The notes under the pieces are model-generated. The model searched no databases. It saw only the letters and a program-made list of their open reading frames with translations, and was not told the DNA's origin. A stretch of DNA of 40,883 nt from an uncultured Clostridia bacterium (GTDB lineage: Bacteria > Bacillota > Clostridia > Oscillospirales > Acutalibacteraceae). The number at the start of each line of letters is the position of its first letter. The stretch's first letter is position 1. The translations under genes and the position numbers were made by a program. The stretch covers positions 1 through 40,883 of the forward strand of contig CAMCHQ010000017.1 of the NCBI GenBank assembly GCA_945874765.1, read 5' to 3'. Below are positions 22,106-33,725 of this stretch, piece by piece.

Positions 22106-22897
22106 TTATCCCACCAACCATTTGTATTTTTCAACACTGTAAAGCGGAACGAGCGGCAAGAGGATAGGTGTCTTTTTCACATATTTTTGATATTCGGGGT
22201 CATTTCCGTAATTCTTGTTTTGCCTGATTTCAAGCCTTCTTGCACCGCCGAACATAATGTAAACAATGCAAATCCAGCCTGCAATTGCGCATATCCATTC
22301 AAGTGCGTTTTTGTAAGCCGTAATTCCGGAAATGAATACGCCCGTCCAAGTGAATACCTCGCCTAAGTAATTTGGGCATCTTACGATTTTAAATAGTCCA
22401 ACGTCGCAAAAACGCTTTGGGTTTTTCTTTTTAAAGCTGTTTTTGGTAAGGTCAGCCGCACTTTCAAGTATAATACCCAAAATCATAATTATCATACCTG
22501 CGATTGCACAGCCGTTGTCCTTTTTACCGCCGTTTAGCCTGAAAAATATCGGGCTTGCCTCAAGCACATATAAAAGCGCACACGAAAGCCATACGCAAAG
22601 TTTAGGGAAAAGCTTCATATTTGAGCCGTCTTTGATATCGTTTTTCATAGTTCTTTGGTACGAGGCACTTTTCTTTTCTCTTATAAGCAAATATCCGCCG
22701 AGCCTGCAACCGTAAATTATAAGCATTACAGCCATTATTGCCGTAACGGGCGTAAGATTTTTTGCAAACATAATGAGAAGTGCAACGCCTATTCCCGCTA
22801 TTGAAAAGCCGTATCCGAGCGATATAAACCAAACGAATTTCTTGAACCCTATTGAACTGATTAATACCGCAACCAAAAATAATATAAGAAATTTCAT
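22106..22897 (-). CDS. DUF1295-type membrane protein (steroid 5-alpha-reductase/methyltransferase-like)
   Basis: A 263-residue integral membrane protein. The C-terminal part has the pattern of the DUF1295/ICMT-like superfamily: RCPNYLGEVFTWTGVF (~170-185), then GGARRLEIRQNKNYGNDPEYQKYVKKTPILLP, which matches the conserved LE-x-R...Y...Y-x-x-Y-x-x-x-T region. Members are membrane reductases or methyltransferases that use a bound cofactor; the substrate here is unknown. Seven or so membrane segments are evident. It has its own promoter on the minus strand and is joined without gap to the downstream membrane gene. Confidence 0.82.
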   Translation of the reverse strand: MKFLILFLVAVLISSIGFKKFVWFISLGYGFSIAGIGVALLIMFAKNLTPVTAIMAVMLIIYGCRLGGYLLIREKKSASYQRTMKNDIKDGSNMKLFPKLCVWLSCALLYVLEASPIFFRLNGGKKDNGCAIAGMIIMILGIILESAADLTKNSFKKKNPKRFCDVGLFKIVRCPNYLGEVFTWTGVFISGITAYKNALEWICAIAGWICIVYIMFGGARRLEIRQNKNYGNDPEYQKYVKKTPILLPLVPLYSVEKYKWLVG

Positions 22898-25454: not shown

Positions 25455-25690
25455 TATAAAAAGAAAAGAAGTGAAAGCATAAAAGTTTCCACTTCTTTTT
25501 CTATATAAAAATCCACCCAGCCGCCGCCTGCTGAGAATAACCTGCTCTCTTAGCAGGTGGGTTTTGCTCTTATCACTTTGTGCTACCAACGTCCTTATAA
25601 ATAAGGGAGGTCTGCATTCCCGTTTCAAAGAAGTCAAATCCCTAAAAAAACGTGTTCGGGTTACTAAAGCTGACGGTTGTCGAGAAGGGC
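25455..25690 (-). ncRNA. Candidate structured small RNA (possibly 6S-like)
   Basis: After the DUF1292 stop the minus strand has no gene for 230 bp. Going 5' to 3' it holds a CCTTA-TTTA-TAAGG hairpin (about 25594-25607), a perfect ACCTGCT-AAGAG-AGCAGGT hairpin (about 25539-25557), a GC-rich GCAGGCGGCGGCTGGG block (25517-25532), and then a terminator with T-run. AAAACCCACC and GGTGGATTTT flank the second hairpin and can pair with one mismatch. ACTTCTTT near 25630 can pair with AAAGAAGT at 25490. The layout, a short hairpin followed by a GGCGGC segment near the 3' end, recalls 6S RNA, and the DUF1292 neighbourhood is compatible. No strong separate promoter is visible, so it may also be the 3' tail of the DUF1292 transcript. 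Confidence 0.35.
25461..25500. terminator. Bidirectional terminator
   Basis: AAAAGAAGTG and CACTTCTTTT pair around an A-rich loop with a short extension. T-rich runs follow on both strands. Confidence 0.8.
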
Positions 25691-25708
25691 AGATTCTATA
25701 AGCTATTA

Positions 25709-26029
25709 TTACTGCTCAGGCTCAAAATATTCTACGTCAAATTTTTCCTCAATCTTTTGCATAAGAATGTCGGAAATTTGCTCGTATTCCATTTCGTCCT
25801 CAATTTCAACGAGATATTCGTCGCCGTTATCGTCAGTTTCAACTTTAAGGGTGATTACCTCGTAGTCGCCGTCAACAATATCTTCGTCTGTTTCATTATA
25901 TTTAGTAATGGCAACGTAAACATCGTTGTCGGTTTCATATCTTTCCAAAAGTTCAAAAAGAAGCTCGTTGCCGTCATCATCTGTTACGCTGATAATGTCA
26001 GGCTCATAATATTCTTCGTTTTCAGCCAT
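25709..26029 (-). CDS. DUF1292 family protein (YrzB-like)
   Basis: A 106-residue very acidic protein of the DUF1292 family (ENEEYYEPDIISVTDDDGNELLFELLERYE...). The family is widespread in Firmicutes, usually near ruvX and the IreB gene, and has no known function. The N-terminal beta-rich ISVTDDDGNE and the central VYVAITKYNETDE patterns are typical. A strong ribosome site (AGGAGG) and a near-consensus promoter precede it. The usual neighbours are missing, so it has moved or stands alone here. A candidate small RNA lies directly downstream on the same strand. Confidence 0.9.
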   Translation of the reverse strand: MAENEEYYEPDIISVTDDDGNELLFELLERYETDNDVYVAITKYNETDEDIVDGDYEVITLKVETDDNGDEYLVEIEDEMEYEQISDILMQKIEEKFDVEYFEPEQ

Positions 26030-26061
26030 AAATTAACCTCCTAAATCAATTTACCTGTAAT

Positions 26062-26090
26062 ATTATATATACTTTTCCCCGTTTAGTCAA
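26062..26090 (-). promoter_or_regulatory. DUF1292 promoter
   Basis: On the minus strand, TTGACT (complement of 26085-26090), 17 nt, TATAAT (complement of 26062-26067). Confidence 0.85.
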
Positions 26091-26101
26091 TAGAATTGAT
26101 G

Positions 26102-26125
26102 AATATTTAACAATTGTTTAATATT
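26102..26125. promoter_or_regulatory. 24-bp near-perfect palindrome between divergent promoters
   Basis: The outer arms AATATT are separated by T-AACAATTGTT-T. The central 10 bp are a perfect dyad and only one symmetric pair mismatches. It lies upstream of both the DUF1292 promoter and the promoter of the large RNA, so it is a candidate shared operator. Confidence 0.45.
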
Positions 26126-26158
26126 GCTAAAAAAATATAAAAAAATTCAAAAAAACTA

Positions 26159-26187
26159 TTGACAATTCACAATTGCGGTGCTATTAT
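26159..26187 (+). promoter_or_regulatory. Promoter of the large non-coding RNA
   Basis: TTGACA (26159-26164), 17 nt, TATTAT (26182-26187): one mismatch from consensus. The start is expected near 26194. Confidence 0.85.
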
Positions 26188-26302
26188 GTAGATGAACAAA
26201 GGAGATAGATACAAAGGCTTGAGAGTGAAAGGACTTGAGGTAAGGAAAAGCCAAAAATCTCTATCGCTTAACTTGTTTAGAATACGAAAGGAGGCTTGTC
26301 CG

Positions 26303-26350
26303 ATGGATTTAGAACCAGGTCAGACAAGCACCCGAGAAGTAACCCAATAA
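26303..26350 (+). CDS. Possible 15-codon leader-type ORF inside the large RNA
   Basis: A full AAAGGAGG (26287-26294) stands 8 nt before ATG at 26303, with 15 codons (MDLEPGQTSTREVTQ) before TAA at 26348-26350. The start codon lies in the loop of the GCTTGTC/GACAAGC stem, which also partly covers the ribosome site. This could be chance, a translated micro-peptide, or a conserved structural motif that mimics a ribosome site. Confidence 0.25.
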   Translation: MDLEPGQTSTREVTQ

Positions 26351-26687
26351 AATAACGGAAACTAATGTATCGGCAGAAGCAAAACGGAATTGCTTACGGG
26401 TACAAACTTTATGAAGGATTATTAAAATAGTTATTCGGCAGAATTGGTAAATTACTATCGGGTGCGAAAAACTTAATAGTAAAGGTATATATTGATTATC
26501 CTGCCGGTAATCTGTAGCGAAAGCTACAATATAAAATAATTTAAAGAGGTACAGTCCAATGGGTTAGTAAGTTAATCTAAATGCTAAAAGTTAATATTAG
26601 TATTTTAGAATAGGTCATTAAATATACGAGGTATAGACCGATGTACTAATCAATTATAAGATTTAAAATTCAATAATAAATAACTTC

Positions 26688-26724
26688 AAGGCGCTCAACC
26701 GTTAGGTTGGGCGCCTTATGTTTT
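26688..26724 (+). terminator. Terminator of the large RNA
   Basis: AAGGCGCTCAACC (26688-26700), GTTA loop, GGTTGGGCGCCTT (26705-26717) with one G-T pair, then ATGTTTT. Confidence 0.9.
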
Positions 26725-26791
26725 GCCGGTCTGTTGAATTTAAAGATTTTGCTTTTTGGGGACCCCGAATAATAGATATGTAATTACGTAG

Positions 26792-26811
26792 GGCAAGGGC
26801 TTGCTCTTGCC
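26792..26811. repeat. Short palindromic intergenic repeat
   Basis: GGCAAGGGC-TT-GCTCTTGCC forms a 9-bp stem with a 2-nt loop. A GGGGACCCC palindrome lies about 30 bp upstream (26758-26766). The style matches the other intergenic hairpins in this window. Nothing else is seen between 26725 and 26840. Confidence 0.55.
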
Positions 26812-26840
26812 GAAATAAAATCAAAAATTGCATTTATAAA

Positions 26841-26880
26841 AAAGTGGCTTGAACGTAGTGTTCAAGCCACTTTTGCTTCT
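26841..26880. terminator. Bidirectional terminator
   Basis: AAAGTGGCTTGAAC (26841-26854) pairs perfectly with GTTCAAGCCACTTT (26860-26873). T-runs follow on both strands, so it closes the DUF523 operon and backs up the large RNA. Confidence 0.93.
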
Positions 26881-33489: not shown

Positions 33490-33725
33490 ATATTGTAACG
33501 GCTGTGAAAAAGAGGAGTAGCTTATTTATTCTTTCAGAGAGTGCTCGTTTGGTGGAAGAGTGCAGAGGCGGTAAGCGAAGGTAGCTTTTGAGCCGGCAAG
33601 GTGAAATTAAGTAGCTTTGTCCGTATATCTGCGTTAAGGATTTGAGTGGCATTATTTTTTAATGCAATTTGAGTGGTACCACGGAATTTTTCGCTTTCGT
33701 CTCAACTTGAGGCGGAAGCGTTTTT
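33490..33725 (+). promoter_or_regulatory. T-box riboswitch, valine-specific
   Basis: Stem I parts are visible: AGTA (33516-33519) and GAA (33577-33579) of the specifier loop, AGAGAG followed by TTTGGTGG (33537-33555), and a likely specifier GTA (33581-33583, Val). The T-box itself reads GAGTGGTACCACGGAA (33671-33686) and binds the uncharged tRNA 3' end. The terminator CGCTTTCGTCTC (33692-33703) with GAGGCGGAAGCG (33709-33720) plus T's competes with the antiterminator. Low charged tRNA-Val should switch on valS and folC. Confidence 0.93.

Follow-up and report, generated by a model that had tools for sequence, protein, structure and literature searches.

A conserved structured RNA of gut bacteria carries recurrent translation starts followed by early stop codons

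The window, that is, the whole 40,883 nt stretch of DNA analysed here (contig CAMCHQ010000017.1 of an uncultured Clostridia bacterium), contains on its forward strand a putative RNA gene of about 530 nt, extending from an inferred start to the end of its terminator (26194-26725). Its promoter (26159-26187) is perfect, with TTGACA as the -35 hexamer (26159-26164), a 17-nt spacer and TATTAT as the -10 hexamer (26182-26187), and is highly conserved in relatives; the extended -10 reads TGCTATTAT in most of them and GTGCTATTAT in the window. Transcription would start at about position 26194, presumably at a high level, given how good and how conserved the promoter is. A terminator-like hairpin, common to the 55 aligned copies described below, lies at 26688-26717, its T-run (ATGTTTTG) being weak in the window and longer in many relatives. 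The predicted fold of 26190-26722 was better than those of 100/100 dinucleotide shuffles (z = -4.04). The independent transcription unit with a promoter, a terminator of its own and a structured body of about 530 nt, as proposed in an earlier note made from the letters of this DNA, is thus borne out in its elements, from which we infer transcription itself. A second strong hairpin with a T-rich flank was seen beyond the RNA's own hairpin, at 26840-26874, and is perhaps shared with the DUF523 gene of the opposite strand.

Pfam matches confirmed that the RNA gene lies between DUF1292 and DUF523 genes. The DUF1292 gene (25709-26029, reverse strand) is a divergent neighbour kept in relatives, and the DUF523 gene (Pfam name 2-thiouracil desulfurase) is also on the strand opposite to the RNA. 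Next to DUF1292, and unmentioned by the earlier note, we found a 6S RNA (Rfam RF00013) on the reverse strand at 25506-25698, scoring 39.7 bits (E 1.2e-6) where the gathering threshold is 46.4. The RNA gene adjoined DUF1292 in 15 of the 18 loci examined, and a 6S match was present near it in 19/20 loci (at E values up to 1; several of these matches scored under the gathering threshold). The 6S RNA and DUF1292 lie side by side (window 25506-26029; L120-L239) in 69/80 family and 35/40 order loci, a synteny from which other RNA genes could be sought. Farther away in the window, on the reverse strand at 22106-22897, is the gene of a DUF1295 protein with weaker matches of the steroid 5-alpha-reductase type (Steroid_dh); it is of interest because the [Eubacterium] coprostanoligenes group takes its name from the conversion of cholesterol to coprostanol.

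At gathering scores the sole Rfam match in the whole window was a T-box leader (33495-33707, forward strand, 143.7 bits), and none fell on the RNA gene. When E values up to 10 were admitted for 26040-26800, four weak matches appeared, mainly in the terminator region, and ROOL, OLE, GOLLD and HEARO were not among them; the same four families were absent from the Rfam matches of 26 relatives' loci at E up to 1 or 2. With no match to any Rfam family at the gathering score, the RNA is not a recognisable ROOL, OLE or GOLLD, and the kinship with these RNAs or with HEARO that had been considered for it found no support in the covariance-model search, while its description as an RNA of no known family held. 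Weak matches such as sau-41 (29.2 bits, 80 required) and, in L033, Ref84 (36.8 bits, 52 required) look like chance matches of terminators and were rejected. A displaced RNase P or tmRNA was rejected as well, since the same genome has matches to both elsewhere (147.6 bits for tmRNA; 39.2 bits, under the cut-off, for the type-B RNase P-like one), as was a phage origin, the phage search giving only four records in which 6-7% of the query was matched (E 0.6). The genome itself had one match to the RNA stretch at E <= 0.001. No paper describing this RNA was recognised in the open-access literature searched; the main text of one survey (PMC11109978) makes no mention of DUF1292, 6S RNA, Ruminococc- or Eubacterium, and that of another (PMC8040213) none of DUF1292 or 6S RNA.

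A DNA search of 80 genomes of the same genus gave many strong matches and many more short ones confined to the promoter end. Sixty-three sequences were extracted by their promoter-end match, and 55 of them, window included, were used; L016, L028 and L030, where the script found no terminator, and L057, L059, L066, L067 and L068, judged to be promoter-only, were left out. Also outside the 55 are L041, with an unmatched promoter end, and the copies of G002 and G051, found by the covariance model only. All 55 share the promoter, a short open reading frame in the core (ORF1) and the terminator-like hairpin, the end of which, hand-picked from candidate hairpins, lies 491-645 nt from the first promoter base in 54 copies and 780 nt from it in one; the sequences are related, so that counts made over them are not independent events. 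The homologues that one would wish to find in relatives were detected with a covariance model of 138 core positions (R1), which matched 61 of the 80 genomes, 59 of them with a single match and two (G028 and G073) with a second, weak one. Among the 51 good assemblies (>= 90% complete, <= 5% contaminated) 45 were matched; the 19 genomes without a match comprised 6 of these good assemblies and 13 others. The promoter pattern was also searched in named genomes and gave 33 stretches, including one in Eubacterium coprostanoligenes ATCC 51222 (locus L102), whose RNA would measure about 460 nt by its sequence; seven of the 33 were inspected closely, of which L083 seemed to be spurious.

A consensus fold was derived from 16 sequences picked as closest, window included, and the support for its pairs was evaluated over the 55 copies. 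The pairs of helices P1, P3, P5, P6 and P8 were kept well above column shuffles, and several helices covary in the homologues. In P1 (26193-26199/26273-26279), the pair 26198-26274 was formed in 53/54 sequences against a shuffle mean of 28.0, and two pairs swap A-U and U-A among clades. Covariation was strong in P5 (26367-26371/26399-26403) and P6 (26378-26382/26390-26394), for which an alignment of 52 of the 55 copies (A1, with L019, L035 and L061 left out) showed 92.3% of cells paired, 128 double-sided changes and a covariation score of 0.686, as compared with 0.255 in shuffles, none of 500 of which scored as high; slid versions of the two helices paired in 31-44%, and the P5 pair 26367-26403 was kept in 46/53 sequences (shuffle mean 19.9). 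The long-range pairing previously noticed between 26328 and 26458 corresponds to P3 (26328-26335/26458-26465), which belongs to the consensus fold; its six inner pairs are retained, with compensatory changes, by 50-54 of 53-54 sequences, and the two outer ones by only 32/53 and 31/54. P8 joins 26437-26441 to 26501-26505. Hairpin P2 (26294-26300/26323-26329), formed around the ORF1 start codon, had a stem of at least 6 bp in 49/55 copies, with a mean of 6.62 bp against 5.05 bp with shuffled strands; its letters vary between clades while the stem persists, and its support in the fixed alignment was mixed because the alignment shifts between clades. P2 and P3 share 26328-26329 and would compete there. 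Of the remaining helices, P3a (26344-26348/26443-26447) is part of the consensus fold with mixed support over the 55 sequences, P4 (26351-26356/26430-26435) is nearly invariant, so that it speaks neither for nor against itself, and P7 had weak pair support. The GAAA-capped stem described earlier at 26513-26528 (P9) recurs as a hairpin of mixed support, and the triple-nested 3' arm claimed at 26597-26649, which covers the start of one of the very short frames described below, is absent from the consensus fold of the 16 aligned sequences.

It had been stated that the body lacks a long ORF, and this is literally true; it nevertheless hides three short ORFs preceded by Shine-Dalgarno (SD) sequences, at 26303-26350, 26559-26567 and 26641-26649. 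The first of them is ORF1 (26287-26350, forward strand, SD included), in which the SD AAAGGAGG (26287-26294) is followed by ATG at 26303, the peptide MDLEPGQTSTREVTQ and the stop TAA at 26348-26350, so that the frame overlaps P2, P3 and P3a. ORF1 was present in 55/55 copies as AAGGAGG...ATG with 10-19 residues, its length being 15 or 16 codons in 41/55, and its recurring residues include EP and AC. In 150 similar pairs, codon positions 1, 2 and 3 differed 230, 332 and 377 times, and the single-change codons comprised 164 synonymous and 354 non-synonymous changes, a comparison confounded by the overlap with the helices; with that proviso, ORF1 may be under little amino-acid constraint. A CC within four bases before the ATG was found in 42/53 ORF1 sites. 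The ORF1 site was predicted to be unpaired at 0.30, less than its surroundings.

The other two frames lie in the 3' tail and follow a common plan: an SD, CC[A/G], AUG, usually one or two codons and a stop. Mini-ORF 1 (26546-26567, forward strand) has GAGGT, a spacer ending in UCCA and ATG at 26559, and reads M-G-stop (26559-26567); mini-ORF 2 (26628-26649, forward strand) has GAGGT, a spacer ending in ACCG and ATG at 26641, and reads M-Y-stop (26641-26649). The aligned copies carry GAGGTnnnGnCCAATG with a stop soon after, and the products across them are M-Y, M-G, M-H, M-F, M-Y-S and M-Y-K, each followed by a stop; the RNAs of the genus have one to four such frames. Sites with an SD, an ATG and an ORF of 1-5 codons numbered 2.33 per RNA in the 55 copies and 0.43 in dinucleotide shuffles, and 51/55 copies had two or more. 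Only 7 of the 55 single RNAs exceeded the maximum of their own 100 shuffles, so that the case for the mini-ORFs rests on the set of copies. There were 142 SD-ATG sites in the tails, 92 with one codon after the ATG and 25 with two (117/142). The 127 tail sites with at most five codons end in TAA (97), TAG (21) or TGA (9), and a stop directly after the ATG occurred in just 1/128 short sites. The arrangement is that of a minigene (SD, AUG, one to few codons and a stop) and is commoner than chance. Besides the promoter, a recurrent conserved feature of this RNA is a translation start with an early stop codon behind it, and the view of a purely noncoding RNA, in the form put forward, found no support.

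The CC that precedes the ATG sets these sites apart from ordinary gene starts. It was found within four bases before the ATG in 125/127 mini sites and in 0/99 ordinary starts, the latter taken from SD-bearing ORFs of at least 150 aa in the window and in loci L080-L112 and not from annotated genes, and it occupied exactly positions -3 and -2 in 98% of the 127 mini sites. The pattern GAGGnnnnRnCCRATG occurred four times in the genome, two of them in this RNA, and its reversed control once. The mini sites were not predicted to be more accessible than their surroundings (0.41 and 0.43 unpaired, respectively). At one tail site of L004, L027, L042, L051, L052, L060 and L061 we observed a ten-codon ORF of a recurring type (MLRSFIVSKK, MRRNFNILIK and similar) in place of a two-codon frame.

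Pairing with the 16S rRNA tail offers a possible reason for the CC. No 16S rRNA match was obtained in the RNA's own assembly; the gene of a genome of the same genus (G001) ends with TGCGGCTGGATCACCTCCTTT in the stretch searched. The motif is able to pair with this tail on both sides of UCA, the SD with CCUCC and UCC[A/G] with UGGA, and in fifteen hand-chosen examples RNAduplex predicted both halves to be paired, at -9.3 to -21.4 kcal/mol. The native spacers of the mini sites paired with the 16S tail better than shuffled ones in 95/127 cases (mean -10.4 against -9.3), whereas ordinary genes went the opposite way, the native spacer being better in 32/99; among the ORF1 spacers 25/53 were better than shuffled spacers, i.e. 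there was no gain. For S. aureus, a cryo-EM study described an SD helix that extends on the start-proximal side (PMC13009471). A mini-hairpin between CC and the GG of the SD was tried as another reason for the CC and rejected, for the units GAGTGAGTCC found in two distant loci (L096 and L109) lack the GG and still have the CC; pairing with 16S rRNA is therefore the preferred explanation, short of proof.

R1 matched 11 of 398 genomes in a sample of the family: seven of the genus, two clear cases from other genera with the same anatomy (G112 and G149) and two weak ones that look unlike this RNA (G445 and G326). The more distant loci L096 and L109, recognised by promoter and motif, have tails with about eight units like GAGTGAGTCC[A/G]ATG, followed by few codons and a stop, and some of the units have AAG for ATG; L110 has the promoter and an ORF and is devoid of mini-ORFs. 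Several units in the extracted region 1-700 of L109 read AAG and keep the short frame and stop, which may mean that the mini-ORFs are decaying or that the unit acts in some way other than through initiation. Using the 6S RNA as an anchor, which had a match in 123/140 family genomes and 62/68 genomes of the order sample, the homologous place was read in 80 of the 123 and 40 of the 62, several stretches ending early with the contig. Sites there were defined by CC[A/G]ATG, a predicted 16S pairing of -9 kcal/mol or lower and an ORF no longer than 30 codons. On the RNA strand, 39 of the 80 other family loci had such sites beside DUF1292 and 6S RNA, against 5/80 on the opposite strand, and two or more of them were present in 20/80 and 1, respectively; 37 of the 39 site-bearing loci had an upstream promoter-like sequence by a loose pattern, and in the other 41/80 there was no site. 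Some of these sites, such as those in L137, L138, L164 and L192, are probably due to chance. The ORFs of the 81 sites, those longer than 30 codons being uncounted, were of 1-5 codons in 44 cases, 6-10 in 5 and 12-30 in 32. In a second family (f17) sites were found in 3/3 loci, and in the remaining 37 order loci only two had sites, both lacking the promoter. The putative homology of the distant loci relies on position, promoter and motif rather than on a full-length alignment. Units lacking the AUG in L186, L219 and L227 retain the part complementary to 16S rRNA; with AAG or nothing in place of AUG in distant units, initiation cannot be the role of all of them.

Comparison of the sequences shows a conserved, structured RNA that keeps its promoter, its SD-CCR-AUG motif, its early stops and its place beside DUF1292 and 6S RNA, and the combination of an extended SD with early stops suggests that the RNA takes on ribosomes and lets them go again instead of using them for protein synthesis. 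Our main reading, to which we assign a probability of roughly one half, is that this independently transcribed RNA serves to engage 30S subunits or ribosomes at initiation, possibly as their titrator. The core formed by P1-P9 would hold ORF1 with its start codon in the loop of P2 and its codons in P2, P3 and P3a, so that a ribosome on ORF1 would have to open the core; translation and folding would then compete, which would suit a sensor. The 3' tail would offer initiation sites whose extended SD (the SD plus [U/A]CC[A/G]) could pair with the 16S tail on either side of UCA, and the ORF that each site opens is usually two or three codons long. A captured ribosome would make fMet-Tyr or a similar product and reach the stop, leaving the site free again, and in this way the RNA would occupy 30S subunits or initiating ribosomes with no protein made, as a titrator or sensor of ribosome supply. 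Several results count against this reading: the ORF1 spacers gained nothing in pairing, few single RNAs stood out from their own shuffles, the mini sites were of ordinary predicted accessibility and the ORF1 site of lower accessibility, some distant units have no AUG, L110 is devoid of mini-ORFs, 41/80 family loci had no site, and R1 missed 19 of the 80 genus genomes. A more specific version, which we hold only tentatively and consider somewhat doubtful, is that of a ribosome sponge, a translational counterpart of the adjoining 6S RNA that would trap 30S subunits by extended 16S pairing and cycle them on the two- and three-codon ORFs, with ORF1 as the sensor.

The same units could also be read as decoys for an RNA-binding protein, the GAGG-spacer-CCR-AUG unit mimicking translation starts and soaking up a regulator of such starts. 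The repetition of a conserved unit within a structured RNA would fit this, as would the existence of AUG-less units and the near invariance of the CC, although the pairing of two bases would bring only a small gain. CsrB is the known example, which soaks up CsrA, a regulator binding translation starts; CsrA was found in 0/80 genomes of the genus by a search that detected it in the CsrA-bearing control genomes, and a CsrB-like sponge of CsrA was rejected. A decoy of any kind, moreover, leaves the early stop codons unexplained, and the motif is so nearly private to this RNA in its own genome that few mRNAs would share it, for which reasons we regard this explanation as unlikely, if still worth attention. 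A large structural RNA of the ROOL or OLE kind, with incidental AUGs and the repeated unit as a structural or assembly motif, would account for the strongly covarying core and again for the AUG-less units, and in it the CC might pair with the GG of the SD. That SD, CC, AUG and stop recur together, that the ORF lengths of the wider family are bimodal and that the GAGTGAGTCC units keep the CC without a GG partner all speak against it, and make it rather improbable.

A messenger for small functional peptides, ORF1 with its 15 or so residues being the main one and the mini-ORFs minor, would be in line with the universal presence of ORF1 in the copies, its predominant length and its recurring residues. 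The larger number of non-synonymous changes in the 150 pairs, confounded as it is by the helices, may point the other way, and dipeptides would hardly be selected for as products; that the RNA mainly yields a functional peptide of 15 residues was set aside because ORF1 seems to be under weak amino-acid constraint, and we consider this role very unlikely. Least credible is a leader or attenuator controlling the next gene. Short ORFs and a terminator are what such an element would have, and the nearest large downstream ORF is co-directional with the RNA in many relatives; however, among the 52 relatives with such an ORF the largest homology group had 19 members, and in several groups, just as in the window, the ORF was on the strand opposite to the RNA. 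No constant same-strand downstream gene was found among the relatives, and control in cis of a fixed downstream gene was rejected.

If the ribosome-engaging role is correct, some bacteria would have a dedicated RNA that governs how many free ribosomes are available, in the way that 6S RNA governs RNA polymerase, and the presence of this RNA in a cultured gut species makes the idea directly testable. Should it lack that role, a conserved structured RNA holding a series of two- and three-codon ORFs still makes the line between coding and noncoding RNA less sharp, and annotation does not usually consider ORFs so small. The conserved RNA described here is, on the comparative evidence, not simply noncoding.

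Like ROOL, OLE and GOLLD, it is a large structured bacterial RNA with a promoter of its own (PMC12286853). Unlike them, it has no Rfam match, and it carries an SD-bearing ORF in the core together with mini-ORFs. It resembles the neighbouring 6S RNA as a structured RNA gene and in the comparable idea of occupying a central machine, which in the case of 6S RNA is RNA polymerase; the two are separate families on different strands, and this RNA would engage ribosomes instead. With the CsrB and CsrC sponge RNAs it has in common several copies of a short unit like a translation start, but here the units end in stop codons and the 80 genomes of the genus lack CsrA. Dual-function small RNAs such as SgrS and Spot 42 also combine a structured RNA with a short ORF, whereas this RNA has a series of ORFs of two or three codons. 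The phage lambda bar minigene consists of an SD, an AUG, very few codons and a stop. The same plan is seen in the minigene of axe-txe (PMC8708949) and in the mini-ORFs of this RNA, with the difference that here one to four of them in the genus, and about eight in the distant loci, are embedded in a dedicated structured RNA.
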